NCBI GenBank assembly: GCA_028697145.1
Contig: JAQVFR010000006.1
Coordinates: forward strand, 1-64,000
DNA: 64,000 nt
From: Actinomycetota bacterium
GTDB taxonomy: Bacteria; Actinomycetota; Geothermincolia; Geothermincolales; RBG-13-55-18
Direction of reading: 5' to 3'
The translations under genes and the position numbers were made by a program. Every line of letters begins with the position of its first letter. Position 1 is the stretch's first letter. The notes beneath the pieces were generated by a model. That model was not told where the DNA came from, did no database searches, and was given only the letters and a program-made list of their open reading frames with translations. Below are positions 1-29,563 of this stretch, piece by piece.

Positions 1-125
1 GGCCGCTTGCCGTCCCGGAGCTGTCCGATATTGCTCTGGCTCTTCACCCCCAAGCGGGCCGCGATCTCCGACGGCTTTTCCTTCTCCAGGATCTTACGGG
101 CCTGGTTTATGGTATTGCTCATCAT
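1..125 (-). CDS. Partial hypothetical protein, HTH-like N-terminus, cut by window edge
   Basis: About 41 codons read on the minus strand from tandem ATG codons directly beside the leader-distal CRISPR repeat, and the frame stays open to the window edge. The residues (TINQARKILEKEKPSEIAAR, then LGVKSQSNIGQLRDGKR) look like real protein and resemble a helix-turn-helix DNA-binding segment. There is no convincing ribosome-binding site; the last repeat supplies the upstream bases. It could be the start of a small regulator or the remains of a gene into which the array once expanded. Function is not known. Confidence 0.35.
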   Translation of the reverse strand, partial: MMSNTINQARKILEKEKPSEIAARLGVKSQSNIGQLRDGKR

Positions 126-126
126 T

Positions 127-896
127 GTTTCAATCCACGCCTCCCGCGCGGGAGGCGACCGTCACGTCGAAGGGAAAGAAGCTGGACCTCTCAGTTTCAA
201 TCCACGCCTCCCGCGCGGGAGGCGACCATAATACGTTGGTGTTTAACCAGGAGCTATCAGTTTCAATCCACGCCTCCCGCGCGGGAGGCGACTCTTTCGT
301 CTCGCGATCGATCAGTGGCGAGCTGTCGTTTCAATCCACGCCTCCCGCGCGGGAGGCGACAAGATCGGGCGGTGCATCGAGGGAGCCGTGATAGTTTCAA
401 TCCACGCCTCCCGCGCGGGAGGCGACATCCCAAGAGGCGGTGGTGGGAATGGCGGCGATGAGTTTCAATCCACGCCTCCCGCGCGGGAGGCGACGCTTCT
501 CGATCTCCTCCAGGAAGGCGTCAGCGGGTTTCAATCCACGCCTCCCGCGCGGGAGGCGACTTGAGCCGATCGAGGGAGGCGACATCATCGAATCCGTTTC
601 AATCCACGCCTCCCGCGCGGGAGGCGACTTGAGCCGATCGAGGGAGGCGACATCATCGAATCCGTTTCAATCCACGCCTCCCGCGCGGGAGGCGACATCC
701 TCGAGGCCTCGATCATGGCGGGGTCAAGTTGTTTCAATCCACGCCTCCCGCGCGGGAGGCGACGCCGCATCAGGTGCCTTATCTCGCCCATCAACTGTTT
801 CAATCCACGCCTCCCGCGCGGGAGGCGACGCTCCTCCTCCCGTTCCTCCACGAGCCCCTGTATGTTTCAATCCACGCCTCCCGCGCGGGAGGCGAC
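127..896 (-). CRISPR. Type I-C CRISPR array, 12 repeats, 11 spacers
   Basis: Twelve identical 33-bp repeats start at 127, 194, 260, 328, 394, 462, 528, 596, 664, 731, 797 and 864. On the plus strand each begins GTTTCAATCC and ends GGGAGGCGAC, with an internal palindrome CCTCCCGCGCGGGAGG. Spacers are 33-35 bp. The reverse complement ends in GGATTGAAAC, the usual 3' end of type I-C repeats, so the crRNA is read on the minus strand and the leader is at the high-coordinate side next to cas2. Spacers 561-595 and 629-663 are identical. Several spacers translate without stops on the minus strand (for example ADAFLEEIEK), as expected for coding-phage protospacers, though their sources are unknown. 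Confidence 0.97.
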
Positions 897-962
897 CGCA
901 TGCCCGTTAAACCCTCTTGAAATATACGTTTAAACGGGGCAATTCGCGATACATTGCATTTG

Positions 963-989
963 CTAATATGTCACTATGGGAATTGTCAA
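963..989 (-). promoter_or_regulatory. Candidate promoter in CRISPR leader
   Basis: On the minus strand a perfect TTGACA box (984-989) is followed after 15 bp by TATTAG (963-968). It lies in the AT-rich leader between cas2 and the array and points into the first repeat, giving a leader transcript of about 60 nt. The spacing is short for sigma-70, so the call is tentative. The leader (897-1084) has no gene. Confidence 0.4.
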
Positions 990-1084
990 AGAGCATTCTA
1001 TAAAACTGTCTATTGATGGGAACCTTAGAGCATCGCGAACTTCTCCGGTTAACCATGATAGCTATACATTCGCGAATGCGATAT

Positions 1085-1375
1085 TCATATGACAAGAGGA
1101 CCCTCCGGATCATATGAGGGCTTTGCACCTATATGCTCAACGCGATGACGCCAATTGTTGCCAAGAAAATAGAAACGCAGACTATCTTCATCCTTGTCTA
1201 TCTCATCGATGAGGCGCTTTCTGAATGCAGTCCACTGAGCCATATCAACTAAACATTCAAAAACGGATTTCTGCACTCTCTGGCCCATATTTTCACATTT
1301 CTTCGCGACGCGCCGAAGCCTCTTCCGACCTTGCGGCGTTTCAGTATTCACATCATATGTAACGAGTACCATCAT
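1085..1375 (-). CDS. cas2: CRISPR-associated endonuclease Cas2
   Basis: Small (about 96 aa) Cas2 protein with the ferredoxin-like opening MVLVTYDVNT, whose aspartate is the conserved metal ligand, followed by the R/K-rich GRKRLRRVAKKCENMGQRVQ segment and the FECLVD strand. Cas2 dimerises and scaffolds Cas1 during spacer integration. It is the last gene of the cas operon, starting a few bases after the cas1 stop, with the CRISPR leader downstream. An ATG after GGAG is preferred to an upstream GTG. Confidence 0.95.
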   Translation of the reverse strand: MMVLVTYDVNTETPQGRKRLRRVAKKCENMGQRVQKSVFECLVDMAQWTAFRKRLIDEIDKDEDSLRFYFLGNNWRHRVEHIGAKPSYDPEGPLVI

Positions 1376-1381
1376 CACCTA

Positions 1382-2413
1382 TCATCTCCACAAAAAAGGC
1401 GGATATCCATCGATATCCCCTCTTAGAAAACGAGAGAACAGCATTGCTTGCACATGAGGAATAAGGCCGATCGCGATTTTCTCCTTGATGAAGGGGTGAA
1501 GGATCTCCTCTTGCTTGCGCTTCTGATATGCAACGAGGATGGTCTTTCTGGTCTCATCATTCATAAGGACTGCCCCCGATTCTGTTTTCTTGAAACCTTT
1601 GCCCTTTACTTGTTGCCGGTTAACAAGTGATAGGGCTAAGCGATCCGCAAAGAAGGAGCGTAGCTCCTCCATGATGTCCAATGCCAGTCCAGGCCTTCCC
1701 GGTCTATCACGGTGAAGGAAACCAACCGCTGGATCCAAGCCTACTCCCTCCAATGCAGAGGATACATCGTGTACCAATAATGAATAAAGAAAAGAGAGAA
1801 GCGCATTCATATTATCCATCGGCGGACGGCGGTTGCGACCATGGAAAAAGAAGTCATCCTTATTGGCGATGATGAGATGGCTAAACACGCTGAAATAGAC
1901 ACGAGCCGCCTCGCCTTCAAGGCCACGCGCAGTATCCGCATTAACCGATTCCTTCAACTTATCGGCGATACGTGCAAGATGTCGTATGGACTTCCTTATC
2001 GAATCAACGTCGATGCTGTCCTGGTGATCGCGTTGAGCTCGCAGGAGCACAACTCTGGAATTGGCGATCTTGGCGAGAACGATATTGCGTGCGACTTCAG
2101 AGGAGAAGTCAACATCATCCGCTCTCCGATATTGCTCTCGTCTTAACAGGACGTTTCCAGAAACCGGGCCCTGAACCCTTGCCCAGAACCTTCCATACTC
2201 ACTCAGGAAAGAAATATTGACGTTCCTTTCTCCACACATCTGCATAAGTGGTGGACTGCAGGTAACCTGTCCAAAACAGATTATTCCGTCGAGTGTATGT
2301 ATGGGTATGCGGAGTTTTACCTCACGATCCACTTTTACGAGTACGGTCTCGCCTTCGCGGGAGAGGTAAGAGCCTTGGCTTGTTACATATAAGGTGTTAA
2401 GGAGATGCTTCAT
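1382..2413 (-). CDS. cas1: CRISPR-associated integrase Cas1 (type I-C)
   Basis: About 343 aa. The start chosen is the ATG opening MKHLLNTLYV, the usual Cas1-C N-terminus; it overlaps the end of cas4. The metal-binding residues of the integrase are visible: Glu in GLEGEAARVYF, His in VGFLHRDRPGR and Asp in LALDIMEELR. The N-terminal beta domain and C-terminal helical domain are both present at normal length. With Cas2 it inserts new spacers at the leader end; Cas4 trims prespacers and selects the PAM. Confidence 0.96.
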   Translation of the reverse strand: MKHLLNTLYVTSQGSYLSREGETVLVKVDREVKLRIPIHTLDGIICFGQVTCSPPLMQMCGERNVNISFLSEYGRFWARVQGPVSGNVLLRREQYRRADDVDFSSEVARNIVLAKIANSRVVLLRAQRDHQDSIDVDSIRKSIRHLARIADKLKESVNADTARGLEGEAARVYFSVFSHLIIANKDDFFFHGRNRRPPMDNMNALLSFLYSLLVHDVSSALEGVGLDPAVGFLHRDRPGRPGLALDIMEELRSFFADRLALSLVNRQQVKGKGFKKTESGAVLMNDETRKTILVAYQKRKQEEILHPFIKEKIAIGLIPHVQAMLFSRFLRGDIDGYPPFLWR

Positions 2414-3119
2414 CAGCACCCTCCTCAAATTCGGTAATGGCGTCGTTGAAATATCGCTCTATACTTCTGCTTCTACTTAGTGCTTTGGGAAGGCAGACAT
2501 CGATTAAGGAACACTTATCACACTTCTTGGAATAATAGGCTTCAGGTGTACGGGCATGTCTAAGTATTTCATGCATTCTTCTTGATGCTGCCTCGGTTTT
2601 TTCCCGCAAGGTTTCATCGAATTCTACTTCCAGACGCCTCCCTGTCTTGCCATAGAAAATTGCCCCCGCTTGAATAGTAGTCTCCAGCATTTCCTCCAGG
2701 CAGATAGCTTGGGCACAGAGCTGCACTTCGTATCCTTCTTCATGCCGCAGCTTGCCGCGTTTATACTCCACAGGGAAAGGTTGCCATAGTCCCGGTACGC
2801 CCTCCAAGCGGATTCCATCAGGTAAGATTCTGTCAGAAAATAGAACAATATCACCTTGTGTAAAACGATGGAACTCTACAACATCTGCTTTGCCCGAAAG
2901 CCCAAGCCCCATGGACCTTAACGGCAATCCGCGAGCGATCCTTATGTCTCCTCGCACTTCAGTAGAGGAGGTATGAGATCGTTCGTGCAAATGGCTCCCC
3001 TCCACCGTGAAGGGATTATCATCCCATATCCCCTCGATATATATCAGCGCTGCCCTGCGCTCGCAGAAGAGCAGGTGCTGAAGCGAGGACAAAGGTATAA
3101 AGTCATCTTCGTTAAACAT
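2397..3119 (-). CDS. cas4: CRISPR-associated exonuclease Cas4
   Basis: About 240 aa from the ATG at MFNEDDFIPL, 20 bp after the cas7 stop. One iron-sulfur cysteine lies in LLFCERRAALIY and three in the C-terminal CDKCSLIDVC cluster; the RecB-type nuclease core includes GKADVVEFHR and PVEYKRGK. In type I-C systems Cas4 works with Cas1-Cas2 to process prespacer ends. The 3' end overlaps the cas1 start, so the two are probably translationally coupled. Confidence 0.95.
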   Translation of the reverse strand: MFNEDDFIPLSSLQHLLFCERRAALIYIEGIWDDNPFTVEGSHLHERSHTSSTEVRGDIRIARGLPLRSMGLGLSGKADVVEFHRFTQGDIVLFSDRILPDGIRLEGVPGLWQPFPVEYKRGKLRHEEGYEVQLCAQAICLEEMLETTIQAGAIFYGKTGRRLEVEFDETLREKTEAASRRMHEILRHARTPEAYYSKKCDKCSLIDVCLPKALSRSRSIERYFNDAITEFEEGADEASP

Positions 3120-3139
3120 ATCAAGTTGGTTTGGTGCCT

Positions 3140-4177
3140 CTATGACTCGATGATATTGTGTGGCACATCGTTCCACAGCAAATTGGCGGCTCCTCCTTCA
3201 CCAGTGACGATGAATCCTGCTTCGATGCCTTTTGGCAGCGCACTCTTATTAAAGACGACTTCATAATCGGTAAAGGATCGCGGGGCTTCCACTCCTTTTT
3301 TCTTCTCGATGCCGATAAGATCGAAGAGCTTATGTGCAGGAGCGCATCCCAGCATCGCCTGCTTTTCGCGCTGCTTGATGTCGGTATCTGTTCCCACATG
3401 CTTGAAGACGAAAATGGGTTCGCGAACCGACATAAGACCCTTGCTGGCCGAACGATCATGCTCGTACATCTTTAGCAACGCCTCCCAGAAGAGCGCCAAG
3501 TCATCCTCTGCAAATCCAGTTCCAGTATCCTCCTGTGCAAGGTGCGCGCTGATAAAGCCCTTGGCGACATAGAGACCATACGGGATTAATGCCTTTCGGC
3601 CCATGGTGCGGAGCTCGTCCTCGGGTTGCTCTTTCTCCCATTCCTCGAATTGCTTAGATCCGACACCCTTGCCCTTAATCTCATTATCTGCAACAGCCAT
3701 CCTGGTTATCGATATGTCTAGAGGCAATACAGGATCAACCGATCGGGCAAATGAGAATTGAACAGGGCCACGTATCTGGCCAGCATTAGGCCCTGTTGAA
3801 AGAACCGCTCCGAAAGTCCGAACATCGTAAAAGTTCTGGCACATCCACTTACCGGCAGCTCTTGCTTTATCCAAGGTCGTTTTCCACTTAGTATTCTTAA
3901 ACGGCGGCATACCACTCGTTTCTTCGTGTGCTCTCGCAATTTTAGTGTTGAGATTGGTTGCGTGCTCAACAAAGATTGCAAATGGCATCTTGTTTCCTCG
4001 AGCTATCTGTACATAATTGCGTACCCGTCTCTTCAATGCAACATCGGATACTAGGCCTCGCATATCCTGAGGGTCTATGCGGGGAGCATTGCCTGCATCA
4101 GGATCTCCATTAGGATTTCCATTCTCGCAATCGAAAAGTAACAAGAATTCGTATCGGTTCTTAATGGTATCAGTCAT
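3140..4177 (-). CDS. cas7c: Type I-C Cascade backbone Cas7 (Csd2)
   Basis: About 345 aa RAMP-fold protein of the Csd2 family. The N-terminus [20 protein letters not shown] is the family hallmark and is followed by the [17 protein letters not shown] segment. Several copies form the crRNA-binding filament of the type I-C effector. The ATG is preceded by AAGGAGG inside the end of cas8c and the genes overlap by a few bases, so the two are coupled. Intact length, with no sign of decay. Confidence 0.95.
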
Positions 4178-6026
4178 CACAAGCCTCCTTGACTTTCTCG
4201 AGCTGATTATCTTTGCCCTTTCTTACGTCTGCGATCTGTTGGTAGTATCCAAGAGCAAACAGGCTTTGCTCTTCCAGATCGAGCGTCCTTGGGATTGAAT
4301 CGCCTAGCTTACGCCATATTTCGCATAATTCATCTTCATACCAGCGGGCTTTTCCTGGGTATTTCTTACTTAGTTGACTTAGATGATGCTGGCTTAGCGA
4401 TGTTAGTCGCCCGAGTACAAGTGATGGTGTTGTACAAGCCGCACTATAATATCGCTGGACTATGCCCGCCCCTACATTACCCAGGGCGCTGTGCTGCAAA
4501 TCAGCGAGCATTGCCATCAATCTACCGCATTGATACGCCGGATGCATATTGCTCCTGTTCAATCGTGGCAGGATCATCTCGCTCATAGCCATACCTCCTC
4601 GTCTTTTCTGGCTTCTTCGAAGATATACTTTCATCAGCGCAAGGCGCGCGTAAGTTGCTGAGAGAACACCAATTTGGTCATTAGTCAGTTTGCCTTCGAG
4701 CATTGCATTGAGGGTTTCCTCAAGATTACCAGAAACCACCGTGTTTCTTTGTTGGATTACCACTCGTGTGAGAATACTGTTGGGAATTGGTTGGTTAGTT
4801 GTTGCTGCCTTAAATATTTCCAGGCGCTCGGAGCCTATCGGTTTAATCCAGTCCTTATATTTCTGGTTCTGTTTACGAGGAGGCAGCACGCAGGTAATTA
4901 TCCGCTCAATCCCTGGCAAGCGGGTCAAGCCTGTTCCTTGAAGATTGACGATTGATAAATCTTCGAACCATTTATCGATATTGCTGACGAGAGTTACAAA
5001 TGGGCCCTCTATCCAATCTCGCACCATAATCCTTCCAGCCGCCCCCGAGAGCGCGATAGCATAGTAATAATTGTTGTGAAGGTCTGGCCTCTGGCCATCC
5101 CTGATGCTGCGTAGCAGTCTGCTTGCAAGATTTTGGGCCTGCAATTCCTCTTCCCGTTCTCCTTCTTCCAGCCATTTCAGGGGATCGTCTTCATCGGAGA
5201 TTTTATTCCTAAACCAGTGAACTATCTTAGCCCCTGCAATCCTTTGGCTATGATTCTCGACTAAATGGTTAAGGGATGCCCTATAAGCCGAAGCTGCGTT
5301 CTCGGATACTGCTGCGTTCATAGATTGTTCAAAGCCGTAAGATCTGAAGGAGTCTTTATCGAAGCCTATCAATACATCACCTTGTGCGTTACCGCCGACG
5401 TTTGCCAAACCTTTTATCTTAAAGTGTGTCGTGGCTGGCTCTACCAATTCTCCAGTCGCAAAGCAACGCATCAATTCCTTGTCATTTCCTGTTTCCTGAA
5501 GTGCGGCTTTTCTGAAATCGCGCCACCAATCGTGCCAAGCGTCGGATTCCAGGGGAAAAACCCCCCCTACTCGAAAAGTTACCTTATCCGTTTCCTTTGC
5601 TCTGGCGTCAGCCAAGCGTTCTCGTATCGCTTGCAGCAAGGATTCATCGGATAAAACATCTGCAATAATGCGAAGTACCGGCACAGCTTCGCCTGCTTTG
5701 CGCAACAGCCCAATAAAGCACGCATGCTTATCGGTTGTCTTCCTACTCCCGGCATCTTTCCCGTATAGTGCGACAACAGAAGTGGTTTCAGCCAGGAAAT
5801 GGCACCTAATGCCCCCCTTTCTCACCATCTCCGAGTGGCTGAGGTCGGGTGCATTCATAAATTGCTGACCTGGGTTCCTTTTCTGATCAGGATCGCCCAA
5901 TTCGAAGACATCGAGAAAGCGACCGCTTTCATCGAGAACGATGGCCCATCGGACATACTTAGGGCTAAAACCGGGCTCTGCCACTAAGCCATGCTCCCTT
6001 GCATATTTGATAAGCGCCTCCAACAT
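4170..6026 (-). CDS. cas8c: Type I-C Cascade large subunit Cas8c (Csd1)
   Basis: 618 aa, normal for Csd1. It starts [13 protein letters not shown] and carries family features such as [13 protein letters not shown] near the N-terminus, [12 protein letters not shown]-type sequence in the middle and a C-terminal helical region. In type I-C, Cas8c recognises the PAM, and its gene commonly also yields the small subunit Cas11c from an internal start; that product is not separately visible as an ORF here. It shares one base with the cas5 stop (TAATG), a typical coupled junction. Confidence 0.93.
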
Positions 6027-6781
6027 TAATATCTACCCCCATCTACCTTGAAGACCTCATCACCATTCTCATACTCGGGGACGAGCAAGATACCATTCTC
6101 CACCTTCGCTCGAAACAGGCTTACTTGCGGTTTCTCATCGGCGGAGCAAGGTCTTGATAGATCAAAGACATCATACAACATAAGACCTATGTCGACGTTC
6201 AAAGGAAGCGGTTCGCATAACGGTAATCCCGGCTCGACCAACTCGAAATATGCTGGGAATTCACGACAGCCTAGATAAGGTTGATAAATGCACTTCCCGC
6301 AAGATGCTCTTCTTCGGAATTGCGCTTCCATTCCTTGAATACGGTCCTCGAAACCCGGCCACGGCCGTATTTCCGCATGCAGGCGGTAACGGACATCCTT
6401 CAAGGCCATGGTCTGTCTCTGTGTGCGCCCCCTCTGATCCGTCCCAAGTACGTCTTTTGTTCCATCCGCGATTATCGGTTCAGGTTCCCGCCCGCCTGTC
6501 GCCCAGCTTAATATCGTGCTCGTGCTCGGAGCCTTCTCCTTGACTTCGTTGCGCCGTAAGGCGATATATTTTGGCTCCGATAGGACCTCCACTTTCTTTA
6601 TTTGCCACCTGAACTCGGCTTTAGACGGGTTCTTATTTGGCTTGCAGTAGATAGCATCGAATATCGCGCGAGCGGCTGATGGCGTGATCACCGGATAGCT
6701 GAACCTCTCCACCTTGAGCTCGGGTCGTGTAAAGCAGGCGAATTCTCCCCAAACCTCCAATACTTGAGTCTTGGGCTTCAT
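6026..6781 (-). CDS. cas5c: Type I-C crRNA endonuclease Cas5c (Cas5d)
   Basis: 251 aa. The Cas5-type I-C signature ERFSYPVITPSAARAIFDAI is at residues about 25-45, and the C-terminal PYLGCREFPAYFEL block is also diagnostic. In type I-C systems, which lack Cas6, Cas5 cuts the pre-crRNA within the repeat. It follows cas3 after about 25 bp and is coupled to cas8c. An SD-like GGGAGA precedes the ATG. Confidence 0.95.
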   Translation of the reverse strand: MKPKTQVLEVWGEFACFTRPELKVERFSYPVITPSAARAIFDAIYCKPNKNPSKAEFRWQIKKVEVLSEPKYIALRRNEVKEKAPSTSTILSWATGGREPEPIIADGTKDVLGTDQRGRTQRQTMALKDVRYRLHAEIRPWPGFEDRIQGMEAQFRRRASCGKCIYQPYLGCREFPAYFELVEPGLPLCEPLPLNVDIGLMLYDVFDLSRPCSADEKPQVSLFRAKVENGILLVPEYENGDEVFKVDGGRY

Positions 6782-6806
6782 GTCTATCTCCCTTTTATCC
6801 AGCCGA

Positions 6807-9167
6807 TCAGCCTATAAAACATTCCATCCCTTCCGGAGGATTAAGCCCGGTTTCCGGGCAGTAATGATTCTCGTTTAAGTAGACAAACCAGTTCTCCGAG
6901 AAAGCACCTTTGCCGATTGGAACCGGTTCGATATAAGAACTCACAGGATTATCAGCTGACGGCTTAAACAAGCCGATGGCATATGGTCTAGCCCTAGCGA
7001 TCCACTTCGCGTTCAGCCTGTTATTGCGCGCCTCTTCAGCAAGAAGCGTGAAAATTCCAGGGTTATATGGGACAAGGATATTGATGGTATTGTTTTCTAT
7101 TATTCGGTAATTGGAGGCAACCTTTTCAAAATCCCGAAGGTCTATCGCATCGAGCAAGTCCTTTTTTCTCGCCTCCGGTTTTGCGACATCATAGAGCTCT
7201 CGGTAATACTCCTCGAATATATGTGGGGAATTGATGTCCAATTCTTGATCGTCGTATGTCCTTAAGAAACTGTTCGTTATCACAGCAGCTTGCCTGTAGG
7301 AACCATCAGGATAGATGTTTCTTCCTTCCGCGTCCTGGGGCGTGAACAATACAACTTCCCCGAAGCCCAGCCTGCCGTTTCTATTGCATCGTCCGGCCGC
7401 CTGCGCTATGGAGTCCATGGGACCCAATGCCCGGTATACGAGAGGAAAATCAACGTCAACACCGGCTTCAACGCATTGTGTTGAAACAAGGCGGCATGGC
7501 TTTCTGTCCTTCAGCCTGGAGCATACTTCTCTGAGTACTTCCCGCCGGTGAGCAGGACACATGTTTGTTGAGAGGTGAAAGATATCAGGCACACCTGTTT
7601 CGACAAGCTCGTTGAAAAGCGCCAAGGCGTGACGTTTGAGGTTTACGATACAGAGCACCTGTTCACATGTATCATCTGCCAGCAATATCGCAAGATCTTG
7701 CCATGAAAGCGAATGACCTGCACCTTCAAACCATTTTATCCTATTGCGCCGAGCTCTTTGGTAGAGACCCAGCTCCTCAGGCACGATCTCCTTGGGGCTC
7801 CAACCAAACGAGCAGTATCGCCTCACATGTGTTTCGAGATGAGAAAAGGCAGGCTGTGTAGCGGTGGCAAAGACAATAGTGGAATTGTACTTTTCTGCGA
7901 GGCGCGACAGTGTCGCCAGGGTAGGAATAACCAAGCCGATAGGAAGAGTCTGGATCTCGTCGAAAAGAACCACGCTGTTGCTGATTCTATGAAGCTTGCG
8001 GCAAGCAGAAGGCCTATTGGAAAGAAGGGATTCAAGGAATTGTACGCTGGTAGTTATGATTACCGGCGCATCCCAGTTTTCCGCTAGCAGCCTCTCTTGG
8101 TGGTGTCGATTCTGTTCATCTTCATGAATACCCTGGCGAGCTGTATTCTCGTCTTTGCCCAAGCCAGCGAGGCTGTGATGCTCGAGAACATACTTATGCA
8201 TGTCTTCTTCCGCAATCACTGACGCAAAAGCCTTCTGATACTCGCCAACCGTCTGTTCGATAATGTTGAGATAGGGAAGAACCGTGATTATCCTGTTGAG
8301 GTTGTTCTGCGACGCGTGTTTCATCGCGAAGGCAAGCATGCTTAAGGTCTTGCCGGTTCCGGTAGGTGCCGTTAGAGTGAATAAACCATGTGGATATTCT
8401 GCGGCAGAAAGGCAAGCATTGAGGAGGTCATCGCGCATTGCACGGACATCAGGCGATGCGGTGGATTCCTCCGCCAGCTCGCCTATGTAGGCAAGAAGAT
8501 GTGCCAGAAGGGAATCGGGCTTCAAGGATAATCCCGGTTCGCGATAAGCTCTTTCCCCCTTCTTCTTCGCATTAAAATGTGCCTCTGTTTCGATGAAATC
8601 GGCGTCAACAAGGGCGGAAAATAGCATGCGGACATCGAGCATTCCAGAGGCTTTGGCGCCATTGGAATGCTTGTAGATGGGATCAACTATCTGCTCTGGT
8701 GGGGGAAGCTCAAGGCCGTCACCCTCTATTCTCTCAAAGAGCACCGCGACATCTTTCTCTGAAAGAACCAAATCCGTGGACTGATTGCCCGATAATCTGG
8801 CAGGATCAAGCTCCTTCAAGGCGTCTCTAGAAGCTTTCTTGAGTCCGGCATGGTGCCCTTGAATCGAAAGTGCAGCTGCGATGCCCGATGCTCTGTATCT
8901 CATTAATGCGATCCATGCACCAAGCGACCAGTGATCAATCCCCCTCACTTCGCCTCGTAACCTTCTCTGAAACGCATCCCCATACTTCCCGATATCGTGA
9001 AGAAGGCCTGCGAGGTACGCCTCAGGTGCTGCATTGAATGCTTCTGCATATTCTGCAGCTCTATCTGCTACCTTTTTTAGGTGGTCGCGTAGCGTGTCAA
9101 CTTCTCCGGCAATATTTACCGAATGAGCAAGATAAGCTGAACCTGTATGCCCTGCAAAACCACCCAT
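6807..9167 (-). CDS. cas3: CRISPR-associated helicase-nuclease Cas3
   Basis: 786 aa with both expected domains. The HD nuclease domain is N-terminal, with H57-D58 in LLHDIGKYG and further histidines at H79 and H105-H106. The SF2 helicase follows: Walker A TGTGKT (269-274), DEIQ box (403-406), FATATQP and the C-terminal QAAGRCNRNGR motif VI. Cas3 is recruited by target-bound Cascade and degrades DNA. It is the first gene of the cas operon. No SD is evident before the ATG. Confidence 0.95.
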   Translation of the reverse strand: MGGFAGHTGSAYLAHSVNIAGEVDTLRDHLKKVADRAAEYAEAFNAAPEAYLAGLLHDIGKYGDAFQRRLRGEVRGIDHWSLGAWIALMRYRASGIAAALSIQGHHAGLKKASRDALKELDPARLSGNQSTDLVLSEKDVAVLFERIEGDGLELPPPEQIVDPIYKHSNGAKASGMLDVRMLFSALVDADFIETEAHFNAKKKGERAYREPGLSLKPDSLLAHLLAYIGELAEESTASPDVRAMRDDLLNACLSAAEYPHGLFTLTAPTGTGKTLSMLAFAMKHASQNNLNRIITVLPYLNIIEQTVGEYQKAFASVIAEEDMHKYVLEHHSLAGLGKDENTARQGIHEDEQNRHHQERLLAENWDAPVIITTSVQFLESLLSNRPSACRKLHRISNSVVLFDEIQTLPIGLVIPTLATLSRLAEKYNSTIVFATATQPAFSHLETHVRRYCSFGWSPKEIVPEELGLYQRARRNRIKWFEGAGHSLSWQDLAILLADDTCEQVLCIVNLKRHALALFNELVETGVPDIFHLSTNMCPAHRREVLREVCSRLKDRKPCRLVSTQCVEAGVDVDFPLVYRALGPMDSIAQAAGRCNRNGRLGFGEVVLFTPQDAEGRNIYPDGSYRQAAVITNSFLRTYDDQELDINSPHIFEEYYRELYDVAKPEARKKDLLDAIDLRDFEKVASNYRIIENNTINILVPYNPGIFTLLAEEARNNRLNAKWIARARPYAIGLFKPSADNPVSSYIEPVPIGKGAFSENWFVYLNENHYCPETGLNPPEGMECFIG

Positions 9168-10120: not shown

Positions 10121-10432
10121 TTAAGGAATTGCCTTGCTTATCATCTCGAGTGCCTCGTCGAGCGAGAAGACCTGCTCTACTTTCCACCTCACACCCTTTA
10201 CCGATGTTCCCAGCCTGAACAACAGCTCCCTCATCAGGCGCAACGCCTCATCCTCATGGCCTTTTTCCACGTCGACGATTATATATTCAATGATCCCGTC
10301 GTCGCCGAACTGGTAGTAAACGTCCCTTCTTGCATAGCCGGGAAAGGGGCCCTTCGTCGATTCCTCGATCATCACCGTCGCATAATCGGCGACCGAGGAA
10401 AAGGGTATCGTACCGACAGCCATCAGAAGCAT
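10121..10432 (-). CDS. Hypothetical small protein (about 103 aa)
   Basis: The start is taken as the third of three consecutive ATG codons because GAGGTG lies about 8 bases upstream of it. The protein (MLLMAVGTIPFSSVADYATV, ending LDEALEMISKAIP) is mixed alpha/beta and could be a dimeric alpha-beta barrel domain, but no family is recognised with certainty. It sits between the intact GrdB-like gene and the duplicated C-terminal remnant, so it may belong to the same transcript or have been trapped by the duplication. Confidence 0.55.
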   Translation of the reverse strand: MLLMAVGTIPFSSVADYATVMIEESTKGPFPGYARRDVYYQFGDDGIIEYIIVDVEKGHEDEALRLMRELLFRLGTSVKGVRWKVEQVFSLDEALEMISKAIP

Positions 10433-10469
10433 CATCATCACCTCATACGATCTTTGCGGCAGTCCCCTA

Positions 10470-11396
10470 TTAAAAGCAGCCTCGCGACCACTGATGAGGC
10501 TGTAGTTGCTCCGTTCGTTCAAACCCCTGTACGTTGCTGGTGGTTGCGCAGTCGGAAAAATCGACAGGCGAGAACTCATGGCGCCGCCATTGATAAGGAA
10601 GGTCCAGTATCATCCCTGGCTCTCCCAACGAGTATAGCGACGCCAGCATGTCCCTGATTATGGTGCGCTGCTGGTTTATATTGCCAGGCTCCCCCAGGGG
10701 CGCTCCGTAGGGGTAGCGCAGGTAGAGGGTGCGCGGGGCGCCTATCTTCTCGGACAGCTCGCGGTTGAGGGAGAGCGCCACCGTGCTTATGCCGTAGGAC
10801 TCCACCACGCGGGCGATCAGGCTCACGGCCCGGTTGCACATGGGTCAGCCCGGGGTGAGCAGCACCACGTCCACGCCGTCCTCCACGAGGGCGCGGGCCA
10901 CCTCGTGGGCGCTGCCCACGGCGGGGTCCACCAGTTCCTTCACGTGGAGGTCGAAACCGTAGCAGTAATGGCAGCTTCCCACCGAGCCGATCACGCCCTC
11001 GCCCGCCAGCTCGCGCAGCCTGTCCAGGGGAAGGATGACGTTGATGTCGGCCTGGGCGCGGTCGAGCGGATAATGGGTGTGGGAGATGCACAGCCGGGCC
11101 GGGTCCGCGTCCGAGGGCACGGCGCGGTAGCTGGAGTCCCCCAGCGCGGCGGCGGTGTCGAAGGGCTCCTGTTCGCGCAAGTGCACGCCGGTAGTGGTGA
11201 TGAGGCTGACGCGGCACTGCGACAGCGGCTTGCGCAGGGGAGTGAAGGCGGGGGGCTCATCGCTCTCGCCCGCCGCGATGGGCTTCATGCCTTTCTCCAC
11301 CAGTTTGCGGAAGGTACTCTGGAACCTCGTGCCCAGGCGGGAGTTGGTCATCTTGCCGAAGAGCGACCATATCCTCAGCTTCTCGAACAGGCCCAT
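10470..11396 (-). CDS. Predicted selenoprotein, GrdB/PrdB-like reductase family, UGA = Sec at 10845-10847
   Basis: Two adjacent same-frame ORFs are separated only by a UGA: LLTPG-UGA-PMCNRAVSLIARVVES. In the glycine/sarcosine/betaine reductase selenoprotein B family this position is the redox motif, Sec- or Cys-x-x-Cys (Cys forms read like CPVC), so the UGA gives UPMC and is predicted to encode selenocysteine (residue 184 of 308). Both sides stay homologous to one family. The ATG chosen (MGLFEKLRIW) follows AAAGGAG. A short stem, CGGGC/GCCCG, begins 13 nt after the UGA and could contribute to a SECIS element. Upstream and overlapping is an MBL-fold gene; no sel genes lie in the window. A pseudogene with a nonsense mutation is the alternative. 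Confidence 0.8.
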
Positions 11397-11407: not shown

Positions 11408-12613
11408 TCATCCCACGGGAGAGAACAGCACGCGCTCCCCCTCCCGGCGGCTGGCGGCGCCCGCCTCCTTGAGGACCACCGCCACCAGCACGTCCAGGCG
11501 GCCCGGAACGCGCTGGAACCTCATGGCCTTGCGCAGGTTATTGGCCGGCTCGTCTATCGCGCGCAGCTCCTCGGTTATCTCCGGGATGGTGGCCTCGCCC
11601 GCCCTCGCGTGGGCCGTGAGTACGTTCTCCTTGAGGCGCGAGTAGAGGTCCTCGAAGGCACCGAAGAACCGGGAACACTCGTCCCCGCCGCGCGCCACGT
11701 CCACCAGCTCCATATCGTCGAAGGGGGTCAGGCCAAGACTGTCCAAGACGTCGGGGAAGAAGGTGGTGCTGCGGTGGGAGTCCGTGGCCAGCTCTATGTA
11801 GCCCTCCTCCGCCATGCGGCGGAACTTGCCGCAGGCGGAGATGCAGCGGTCGAGCGAGGAGTAGTAGAAGGCGGGGTTGATCTCCACCGTCACGTCCCCC
11901 GACAGCAGCAGCTTGTTCTCGGGGTCGTAGAGGGAGACGTGCCCCCGGGTGTGGGAGGCGTCGTGAATGGCGAAGAAGCGCCCCACCTCCCATCCCTCCA
12001 GCTCGACGCCGCCGAAGCTGCGCTTCACCTTGGCGGTTTCGGGCAGTATGGTCGCGCCTCCCAGGAAGTTGTCGATGCCCCCGAACATCAGCTTGAGGTT
12101 GGCCTGCAGCAGCGATCGCGCCAAGCCCATCGAGACCCGCGAGGCCAGGTTCACGGGGGCGGTTATACCGCGCATGTCGAAGAGGGAGTAGATGTTGTAA
12201 AGCTGTTCCAGGTCGCGGAAGTCCGCCATCCAGTCCGAGAAGAAGTCGAGCACGCCGGCTTCCGGCTCCTGCAGCAGGAAGCTCCACTCCAGGCCGCTCT
12301 CACGGATGACGTCGTTGTTGGAGGCGTGGTCGAAGTGTCCCTGGGTGAGCACGAGATCGACTTTCTTCACCCCGTCCGCGCGGTAGCGCCGCATGACCTC
12401 CAGCATCCTCTCGCGGTAGAAGGGGTAGGTGCCGGTGTCGAGGACGAGAAGGGAGTCGCCGTCCCGCAGCATGAAGACGTTGCAGGACGCGGGCTTGAGC
12501 AGGAAGTAATCGCTGATGTAGCCCTCCAGCATCCACACGTCGGGGGCGATCTCGCGCGTGAACGACCGCCGCAGTTCCTTTTCCTGTCCGGGCAAGGTGA
12601 GCTTGTAAGACAC
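11408..12613 (-). CDS. Metallo-beta-lactamase-fold hydrolase
   Basis: About 401 aa from a GTG (VSYKLTLPG) with GAGGAGGGG upstream, 3 bp beyond the TetR stop. The N-terminal half has the MBL fold: LLVLDTGTY, the metal motif TQGHFDHA (residues 90-97), SHTRGHVSLYD (220-230), LLLSGD (236-240) and ATDSH (276-280). The first His of the HxHxDH motif is Gln (Q91), so the metal site is atypical. It overlaps the start region of the GrdB-like selenoprotein gene by ATGA coupling, suggesting a shared pathway. Substrate unknown. Confidence 0.85.
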   Translation of the reverse strand: MSYKLTLPGQEKELRRSFTREIAPDVWMLEGYISDYFLLKPASCNVFMLRDGDSLLVLDTGTYPFYRERMLEVMRRYRADGVKKVDLVLTQGHFDHASNNDVIRESGLEWSFLLQEPEAGVLDFFSDWMADFRDLEQLYNIYSLFDMRGITAPVNLASRVSMGLARSLLQANLKLMFGGIDNFLGGATILPETAKVKRSFGGVELEGWEVGRFFAIHDASHTRGHVSLYDPENKLLLSGDVTVEINPAFYYSSLDRCISACGKFRRMAEEGYIELATDSHRSTTFFPDVLDSLGLTPFDDMELVDVARGGDECSRFFGAFEDLYSRLKENVLTAHARAGEATIPEITEELRAIDEPANNLRKAMRFQRVPGRLDVLVAVVLKEAGAASRREGERVLFSPVG

Positions 12614-13396: not shown

Positions 13397-13448
13397 TGAC
13401 TAAGGTCAGTGACTATAGTCATTATAATGCAAGGAGGGGAGATGGCAA
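13397..13448 (-). promoter_or_regulatory. Promoter with twin TetR-type operators
   Basis: Minus-strand promoter TTGCCA (13443-13448), 16 bp, TATAAT (13421-13426). Over the predicted start lie two 12-bp palindromes one base apart: TGACTATAGTCA (13410-13421, perfect) and TGACTAAGGTCA (13397-13408, imperfect). Placement between promoter and tetR argues for autorepression. Confidence 0.65.
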
Positions 13449-13582: not shown

Positions 13583-14914
13583 CTACAGCGACTCCAGCCA
13601 TTCCCCGATCCTGGGGAACAGCTCGGTCGGCGCATTGAGTCCCAGCACGACGTCGGCGTGGGCGGTGCCCGGAATGACGTAGCAGCGGTCCCTGGGGTCG
13701 CGGGTCTTGAGCAAGTGGATCGCCTCGACGTCCTCGGGGTTGGTGATGTCCCGGGTGGCGTCCACGAGCACCAGGGCCGGGAGGCTTATCTTGTCGAGGT
13801 TATCCGAGTAGTAGAAATACCCGTCGCCGCCGCGGGGTGGAGGCGGGCTCCAGCGCCAGAAGTTGAAGAAGCCGTTGCGGTAGTCCTCCCGCATCCTGTG
13901 GTTAACGCACGCGTCAAGGAACTGCACCACGGCCCGCGAGCTGAAGCCGTCCGCCGCGTACTGGAAGAAGAAGGAAGATATATCCGCGTTGAGGTTGTCG
14001 GGATAGATCGAGAGCATCAGGTTGGCGGGAAAGAAGAAGTCCGGGTAGCCCAGAAGGCTCCACACCCCGCGCAGCAGGTTCTCCAGGCCGAGGACGGGTG
14101 AGGCCACCGCTCCGCCCAGGGTGGCGGTGATGGGCCTCAGGTCCAGGTAGTAGGGGATGTACAGGGCGGTCCACAGGACTATCTTCATCAGGCACGTGAG
14201 GTTGCCGGTCGGGTAAGCCGGCCCGTCCAGGGAGACCAGGCCCTTGAGCGCCTGCGGCCCCTTCCCGTCGTTGCGCTCGCGCACCAGGGCGGGGTCGGAG
14301 ATGACCCTGGAGTCGGGATCGGCCATGTTCTCGAACCTCGCGCCCTCCAGGTACATGTAGGACATGACGCCGCCCATGCTGTGCCCGGCCCACACCGGCT
14401 TGCGCCCGGTGATCTCTCTCACCCTGGCGATGATGGCCGGCATGTCGTAGATGCCGAGTTCGTCGATGGCGTACCCGCTCGCTCCGCCACTCCTGAACTC
14501 ACCTCGGCCCTGGCCGCGATAGTTCACCAGCCAGACGTCGTAACCCCGGCTCCACAGATAGTAGGCCAGGCTGTAGTAACGCATGGGGTCTTCCCGCAGG
14601 TAGGCGTCCCCGGCGGCCCATGGGGCCGGGTCCCGCGGTAGCTGCGTTGCGTAGGCCGCCCCCTCCGGGGTGTGCACGTTGAAGAAGTTGAAATTACAGG
14701 CCATACCGGGCATGAGGATCACCGGCTGCGCGCCCTCCCGCAGAGGGCTCTGCGGATCGGGGCGGTACCTCCACATGGCGAGGTCCACGCCGTCCACGGT
14801 GCGCGCGGTGTATATGTCCCCGCTGTCGCCTGCCCACGCGACCGGGCACAGGAACAGCAACACGAGAACGATTGCCGTAAAAACCCCGACGGCCGCAGAT
14901 CCCTTGCCCTTCAT
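13583..14914 (-). CDS. Secreted alpha/beta-hydrolase, lipase-like
   Basis: 443 aa with a signal peptide (hydrophobic AAVGVFTAIVLVLLFLCP, cleavage near AWA-GD). The fold resembles acid-lipase type hydrolases: VILMPGMACNFNFF oxyanion region, nucleophile elbow GHSMGG, catalytic Asp in LVLVDATRDITNPED, and His in IPGTAHADVVLG. It probably hydrolyses an ester or lipid outside the membrane. It is monocistronic, with a hairpin CCGGGGT/ACCCCGG (13559-13574) just after its stop. Confidence 0.85.
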   Translation of the reverse strand: MKGKGSAAVGVFTAIVLVLLFLCPVAWAGDSGDIYTARTVDGVDLAMWRYRPDPQSPLREGAQPVILMPGMACNFNFFNVHTPEGAAYATQLPRDPAPWAAGDAYLREDPMRYYSLAYYLWSRGYDVWLVNYRGQGRGEFRSGGASGYAIDELGIYDMPAIIARVREITGRKPVWAGHSMGGVMSYMYLEGARFENMADPDSRVISDPALVRERNDGKGPQALKGLVSLDGPAYPTGNLTCLMKIVLWTALYIPYYLDLRPITATLGGAVASPVLGLENLLRGVWSLLGYPDFFFPANLMLSIYPDNLNADISSFFFQYAADGFSSRAVVQFLDACVNHRMREDYRNGFFNFWRWSPPPPRGGDGYFYYSDNLDKISLPALVLVDATRDITNPEDVEAIHLLKTRDPRDRCYVIPGTAHADVVLGLNAPTELFPRIGEWLESL

Positions 14915-15004: not shown

Positions 15005-15568
15005 TCAGGATATCTTCAGCGCTTTCTTCCAGGTGCGGTGCACGGGGCACTGGTTCTTCCATTCCTGGGTCGAGTTCCGGGCGCACCAGCGGCAGGCGTG
15101 GAAGACCTGCCCGATGAGCACCAGCTGCATTACCGCCAGATAACGCGCAAGCATGCGGCGGTCTCCGCGCATGGCCACGGCCGGTATCCAGAAAATGGAG
15201 CCGAGGCATGCCGCCTCCAGGCCGATGCCCACGGGGCCCACGTCCTTGCCCTCCACCCCTGGGAGGACGAGGGAAGTGTACTTGCCGATGTAATAGGAGT
15301 AGCACATCTGGCCGTAGCCCTCGCAGCGCGAGCAGATGATGTAGCGGGCGATGGTGAGGAATACCGACCAGACGCCGAGCCAGGCACCCAGGAGCTTGAA
15401 CTTGCGCTCCTTGATCATCCCCACCAGGGCCATGATGATGCCCGTCCCGAAGGCCGCGAAACGCAGGGCCATGATGATCGGATTAGGCCGCGGACCGCAC
15501 GGTTCGTCGCAGCATGTAGCACAGGTGCACTCGGTCTTTTTCTCTTCGTGATCGGCGCCGCAGCCCAT
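15005..15568 (-). CDS. Cysteine-rich multi-pass membrane protein, unknown function
   Basis: 187 aa. The N-terminus has a cysteine cluster (CTCATCCDEPC) that could bind metal. About four membrane spans follow, among them RFAAFGTGIIMALVGMI, LLGAWLGVWSVFLTIARYII and YLAVMQLVLIGQVFHA, with further Cys pairs in ICSRCEGYGQMC and HACRWCARNS near the membrane faces. The pattern suggests a redox or metal-linked integral protein, but no family is recognised. It reads in the same direction as the lipase, about 90 bp upstream of it. Confidence 0.7.
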   Translation of the reverse strand: MGCGADHEEKKTECTCATCCDEPCGPRPNPIIMALRFAAFGTGIIMALVGMIKERKFKLLGAWLGVWSVFLTIARYIICSRCEGYGQMCYSYYIGKYTSLVLPGVEGKDVGPVGIGLEAACLGSIFWIPAVAMRGDRRMLARYLAVMQLVLIGQVFHACRWCARNSTQEWKNQCPVHRTWKKALKIS

Positions 15569-29289: not shown

Positions 29290-29318
29290 AAAAAACCCGA
29301 CCGTTTAAAACGATCGGG
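29290..29318 (-). terminator. Intrinsic terminator, minus strand
   Basis: Read on the minus strand, CCCGATCG-loop-CGGTCGGG (29296-29318) is followed by six Ts. It would end the transcript of the wzy-like gene upstream at 29564. The remaining sequence between 29047 and 29563 holds no convincing gene. Confidence 0.8.
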
Positions 29319-29563
29319 CCGGTTTCACCACTAGCTCCCCGCAGCTGAGGTAACCACACTGCACACTGCGGATCGTCGCTTCCCTATCGTGAGCTACATA
29401 TCGCTGTCTATGGTTTCATTATTATATGCGAAAAACACCCAAATGCAAACCCTTTCTGAACAAACGGTTGAAACACGTTCGCGTCTTTTCCCCGCCGGGG
29501 TAGCGAGCCGCACGAGCATTCCCGTCATGCTCCTTGCTTCGCGCTCCGCGTGGCCGGAACGCG

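Follow-up and report, generated by a model that had tools for sequence, protein, structure and literature searches.

The 64,000-nucleotide stretch of Actinomycetota DNA analyzed here (the window) carries a gene that a UGA appears to break in two, which raises the questions of whether this codon is a stop or is read as selenocysteine (Sec) and, in the latter case, what kind of enzyme the gene would encode. The triplet TCA at 10845-10847 on the plus strand is an in-frame UGA on the minus strand, and it falls, at the U of a UxxC motif, inside a single open reading frame (ORF) of 308 codons (11396-10470), which it divides. The first part runs from 11411 or 11396 to 10845 and the second from 10841 to 10470; joined, they read VVLLTPG-U-PMC-NRAV around Sec and end at a TAA terminator (10472-10470). 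The ATG at 11396 is a better start than 11411, because an SD sequence, AAAGGAG (11408-11402), lies 5 nt upstream of it and the orthologues start from the corresponding residue or close to it; counted from this ATG, Sec is residue 184 of 308 (189 of 313 when numbered from 11411). At its C terminus, the window protein is approximately 27 residues longer than the orthologues, in a region (10470-10560, minus strand) that overlaps an ORF at 10121-10579. The features discussed below are collected in Table 1.

Table 1. Coordinates of the genes and predicted elements at the locus and of the related UGA-containing genes. Positions are those of the window unless a locus is named.
Feature	Position	Strand	Remarks
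PrdB-like selenoprotein gene (predicted)	10470..11396	-	308 codons; UxxC = U184-P-M-C187
In-frame UGA, predicted to be read as selenocysteine	10845..10847	-	conserved codon, hairpin, dN/dS
SECIS-type hairpin (predicted)	10816..10834	-	UGA+13 to +31 (U of UGA = 0); apical loop CGUGA
MBL-fold hydrolase, PF00753	11408..12625	-	405 aa; metal motif QGHFDH
TetR-family regulator, PF00440	12616..13368	-	profile match
Palindromic predicted operator	13397..13421	-	TGACTATAGTC-ACT-GACCTTAGTCA; conserved at G002 and G001 loci
Promoter-like TTGCCA-16-TATAAT	13421..13448	-	11/12 consensus bases; abuts operator
Alpha/beta hydrolase, signal-like N terminus	13583..14914	-	upstream gene; directly beside Sec gene in G009
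Cys-rich hydrophobic protein, probably membrane	15005..15568	-	beside or near Sec gene in 4/6 class orthologue loci
Racemase-family (PF01177) UGA gene (candidate)	L073:1333-2130	-	near TetR, MBL
Racemase-family (PF01177) UGA gene (candidate)	L088:6928-7719	-	near TetR
Racemase-family (PF01177) UGA gene (candidate)	L089:5071-5850	+	near 2-hydroxyacyl-CoA dehydratase D subunits

Elsewhere in the window, a Type I-C CRISPR-Cas system occupies 112-9167, with an array of approximately 33-nt repeats (around 127-896) and cas8c, cas5c, and cas3 on the minus strand; two successive repeat-spacer units of this array are identical over 68 nt (528-663), which amounts to a duplicated spacer. A c-di-GMP-II riboswitch aptamer (59 bits) lies at 29308-29392 on the minus strand.

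The comparison of homologues bears directly on the reading of the UGA. All six orthologues of the class, counting the window gene, to which the other five are 73, 70, 68, 60, and 49% identical, have TGA at this codon, and it is found in 30 of the 34 Actinomycetota homologue loci that were closely inspected, the remaining 4 having TGC (Cys). Across the phylum, 78 of 396 genomes carry homologues, and an in-frame TGA is present in nearly all of the approximately 90 matches tabulated, some of the weakest of which are GrdB-type. A column otherwise held by Cys or Sec thus carries an in-frame UGA, the mark of a bacterial selenoprotein, and residues R96, H111, D122, Sec/Cys189, and C192 (313-residue numbering) are invariant in 34/34 homologues. 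Between the window gene and the five orthologues, dN/dS is 0.12 to 0.27 downstream of the UGA, lower than upstream of it, and by this measure the codons past the UGA are under purifying selection. The probability of a nonsense pseudogene or a sequencing error is negligible, as nothing more than the stop codon itself speaks for it and a pseudogene, frame, or sequencing-error reading is ruled out by the same-codon UGA (or Cys) in many genomes and by dN/dS below 0.3 past the UGA, the Sec machinery being complete as well. It is likewise very improbable that the UGA is a true stop and that a second polypeptide starts from the AUG at 10841: such an AUG does stand two codons past the UGA, but it lacks conservation (the PMC of the window protein is PLC or LTC in homologues), the Cys homologues run straight through, and a SECIS-type hairpin follows the UGA.

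For this hairpin, RNAalifold, applied to 27 distinct sequences, gave a stem-loop at UGA+13 to +31 with a CGUGA or GUG loop 17 nt from the UGA, in which 95.2% of cells were paired and three pairs showed compensatory two-sided changes; controls in which the hairpin was slid or shuffled scored well below the real position. The 5-bp core was 98.7% paired in the 30 Sec genes versus 60% in the 4 Cys genes. The published bSECIS criteria are a loop of 3 to 9 nt with G in one of the first two places, a stem of 4 to 16 bp, a distance of 16 to 37 nt from the UGA, and a minimum free energy (MFE) of -7.5 kcal/mol or below (PMC13188914). In the window gene, the loop is CGUGA, the spacing 17 nt, and the stem 5 to 7 pairs; the isolated hairpin (5 pairs, -7.0 kcal/mol) falls just short of the strict cut-off, and the 48-nt segment folds with -15.4 kcal/mol. 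Since approximately 10% of random window positions satisfy bSECIS-like criteria and the window hairpin is modest, it is the comparison, and not single-sequence prediction, that carries the SECIS claim.

The source genome (2.98 Mb, 97.6% complete) contains selA (597 bits) and a tRNA-Sec with anticodon TCA (79 bits). They lie in a 15-kb stretch in the order selD-like ORF, YedF-like ORF, selA, selB-like ORF, and tRNA-Sec, where selD, yedF, and selB were named from ORF translations and not by profile search; SelA, SelB, SelD, and tRNA-Sec are thus all present in the genome. It is almost certain that the seemingly stop-broken gene gives an intact enzyme whose active site contains selenium. The original prediction had joined LLTPG-UGA-PMCNRAV across this codon, taken the UGA to be Sec, and placed the start at 11396, and it stands on all three points: the first follows from the sequence and from the same codon in the orthologues, the second is borne out by the UGA/Cys column, the Sec genes, and the covarying hairpin, and the third agrees with the SD position and the orthologue starts. 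The checks proposed with it, namely, alignment with Sec- and Cys-containing relatives, a search of the genome for selA, selB, selD, and tRNA-Sec, and a SECIS search after the UGA, gave a UGA/Cys column kept across the family, all four components in one cluster, and a hairpin that covaries in Sec genes. PrdB-type proteins encoded with a UGA have in themselves been known for a long time (PMC2398784, PMC13188914).

As to the family, the best NCBIfam match is TIGR04483 (PrdB) with 174.1 bits over model positions 17 to 236 of 238, spanning the UGA junction; the PrdB equivalog cut-off of 300 bits is not reached by the window protein, and the clade members tested scored 121 to 174 bits. Pfam PF07355 (GRDB) matches with 32.4 bits (gathering score, 22) through its C-terminal part only, in a match that ends just before the junction. 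Because a search for PF09338 (PrdA/GrdE) matched in none of the 15 genomes with the PrdB-like group that were tested first, a positive control was run, in which PF09338 was present in 8/8 genomes of the phylum with GrdB-type matches and again absent from the window genome. In a tree whose comparison set was GrdB-type proteins, true clostridial PrdB being left out, the PrdB-like clade and four GrdB-type proteins were split at 100/100, with the class orthologues, six in number, in one clade at 100/97. By these comparisons, the protein is a member of a widespread, uncharacterized PrdB-like group that lacks the usual partner subunit. The best match, extending over nearly the full TIGR04483 model, would suggest the PrdB subunit of D-proline reductase, but with 174 bits against 300 and with PF09338 absent under a working positive control, this has very little probability, and the assignment to D-proline or glycine reductase was rejected. 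The original placement in the GrdB/PrdB-like family accordingly holds with respect to homology and UxxC and is refined with respect to the missing PrdA/GrdE partner, which sets the protein apart from the proline and glycine reductase subunits.

The protein can be set against four known systems: (i) PrdB (TIGR04483) is the closest family and likewise has a UxxC with Sec decoded by UGA, but the window protein differs from it in its score, in the lack of PrdA, in its operon, and in an extra N-terminal region of approximately 50 residues; (ii) GrdB/GrdF/GrdH (protein B of glycine, sarcosine, and betaine reductase; PF07355, TIGR01918) have a homologous C-terminal half with UxxC, whereas the window protein lacks the GrdB N-terminal half (it matches PF07355 positions 220 to 345), has no GrdE, and belongs to a separate clade (100/100); (iii) the marine "PrdB" proteins of the Sargasso Sea and GOS surveys (PMC1088965, PMC2398784) are PrdB-type UxxC selenoproteins from metagenomes and possibly represent the same stand-alone clade, but the parts of these reports that deal with them give no operon context or MBL/TetR module; and (iv) FarB, the fluoroacetate reductase component of Cloacibacillus porcorum (PMC10838667), is a GrdB-family selenoprotein from a substrate-induced operon with a proposed selenolate attack on C-X, but its partners are FarE (GrdE-like) and the glycine reductase system, whereas PF09338 is absent from the window genome.

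A sequence search of the PDB returned no relative, with weak glutaredoxin matches only (E 0.07), and a fold search of the PDB with an AlphaFold model (mean pLDDT 71.7, core mostly 85 to 97, built with only 5 sequences) returned nothing significant (best E 0.008, TM approximately 0.27); nothing in this search supported a common, racemase-like fold. The main rival to a selenolate reductase is a general UxxC thiol/selenol-disulfide oxidoreductase that acts on disulfides or peroxides and does not reduce organic C-X bonds. It would agree with the invariant Cys of the UxxC motif and the existence of Cys forms, with the absence of PrdA/GrdE, and with the pyridine-nucleotide flavoprotein disulfide reductase that adjoins or lies near the PrdB-like gene at three loci (L049, L052, and L055). 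In the window, the Sec gene has no flavoprotein reductase as a direct neighbor. We regard this rival as unlikely, given that a thioredoxin-like fold is not evident from the searches above, that the full-length similarity is to PrdB, and that a repressor of its own points to a particular substrate.

A ligand-induced selenolate reductase, the reading that we prefer, draws in the neighboring genes. Their coupling, proposed at the outset as MBL-fold and TetR genes upstream of the Sec gene, was confirmed by the profile matches: the three genes lie on one strand and overlap or abut, the MBL stop being at 11408 and the Sec-gene AUG at 11396. The MBL protein scores 50.6 bits against PF00753, and in 6/6 members of its subfamily QxHxDH replaces HxHxDH, the first His being Gln. 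GOB beta-lactamases likewise have Gln for the first His. The order TetR-MBL-PrdB occurs in three genomes, those of the window, G002 (L044), and G019 (L047, with TetR divergent), and the MBL gene is adjacent to the Sec gene in 3/3 genomes holding both; a class-wide search found no additional MBL genomes. In G005 and G009, which belong to the same family, the Sec gene occurs without TetR or an MBL of this subfamily and near the Cys-rich membrane protein, in G009 also with the alpha/beta hydrolase. This Cys-rich protein has no Pfam or NCBIfam match and contains the conserved motifs CSRCEGYGxMC and HACRxCA.

A palindrome similar to the predicted operator precedes TetR in G002 and lies between TetR and MBL in G001, and with up to two mismatches the pattern occurs at one place each in the window genome, G002, and G001. 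A single match in G003, inside a coding gene and with no TetR, was set aside as chance. TetR would bind the palindrome in the window, and the overlap of operator and promoter, at one site in the genome, supports a ligand-controlled operon. The dedicated, ligand-controlled pathway that had been suggested for this locus gains support in this respect and is refined in that MBL and TetR are not obligatory neighbors, two genomes of the family being without them. It is conceivable, though on balance doubtful, that TetR and MBL are mere neighbors and that the Sec protein instead partners the Cys-rich membrane protein and an esterase: the membrane protein is found at 4/6 class orthologue loci versus 3/6 for MBL plus TetR, and next to TetR-MBL pairs at other loci stand TPP enzymes or a candidate Sec gene of the racemase family, but the MBL gene abuts the Sec gene and is next to it in all three genomes with both.

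On the whole, the locus is probably best explained by a stand-alone PrdB-like selenoprotein in a TetR-repressed operon, acting with the MBL hydrolase as a ligand-induced selenolate reductase. In the proposed sequence of events, the hairpin after the UGA would direct SelB and tRNA-Sec(UCA) to insert Sec at codon 184, forming the U-P-M-C redox pair; TetR would occupy the promoter and keep the TetR-MBL-PrdB operon repressed until released by a ligand; the MBL hydrolase would open an ester, thioester, or lactone; the selenolate would then attack the MBL product or its relative at an electrophilic C-X or X-X bond; Cys187 would resolve the intermediate to a selenenylsulfide; and re-reduction would fall to a flavoprotein disulfide reductase that uses NAD(P)H, in keeping with the reductases next to or near the homologues at L049, L052, and L055. 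Comparison supports the reading of the UGA as Sec and shows the UxxC motif, the lack of PrdA/GrdE, the conservation of the operon, and the predicted operator over the promoter; ligand release, the order of MBL before Sec protein, C-X reduction, and the electron donor are steps that we infer. GrdB/PrdB chemistry is thought to consist of a selenolate attack on carbon followed by thiolate cleavage of the selenoether, giving a selenenylsulfide (PMC10298544), and fluoroacetate induces the operon of the GrdB-family protein FarB, which has been assigned to C-F cleavage (PMC10838667). In the absence of PrdA, no carbonyl that could activate an amine is known, and the activation of the substrate must differ; this counts against the proposed reading, as do the Sec genes of G005 and G009 with neither MBL nor TetR and the lack of a neighboring flavoprotein reductase in the window.

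In G001, a genome of the same genus, a paralogous MBL gene (63%) and a divergent TetR gene adjoin an ORF of the Asp/Glu-racemase family that has a UGA at the position of the catalytic Cys (VLVPG-U-TIMSP), beyond which the reading frame continues; two more copies, which are 65 and 61% identical, have a TGA as well, so that the gene is found at three places in two genomes of the genus. NCBIfam gave weak racemase matches only, the 2026 selenoproteome review makes no mention of the family, and the gene is a candidate for a new selenoprotein family. At two further loci (L074:1638-7050 and L075:4590-9988), TetR and MBL genes (MBL approximately 50% identical) are followed by two TPP-dependent acetolactate-synthase-like enzymes. 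We tentatively suggest, as an idea with less than even support, that the TetR-MBL cassettes of the genus may be modules switched by a ligand and that the selenolate enzymes they feed, PrdB-like or of the racemase family, may be interchangeable.

Ocean surveys place PrdB-type selenoproteins among the selenoprotein families of highest abundance (PMC2398784), and these proteins take their name from proline reductase. Because PrdA/GrdE, needed for proline reductase chemistry, is absent in the genomes tested, that name is probably wrong for the stand-alone clade. The racemase-family Sec gene, if confirmed, would add a selenoprotein family, and such ligand-switched modules with interchangeable enzymes, if real, would represent a new kind of inducible selenoenzyme pathway. 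For the PrdB-like enzyme itself, the predicted repressor, operator, and promoter may provide, through the inducer, a handle on the substrate.
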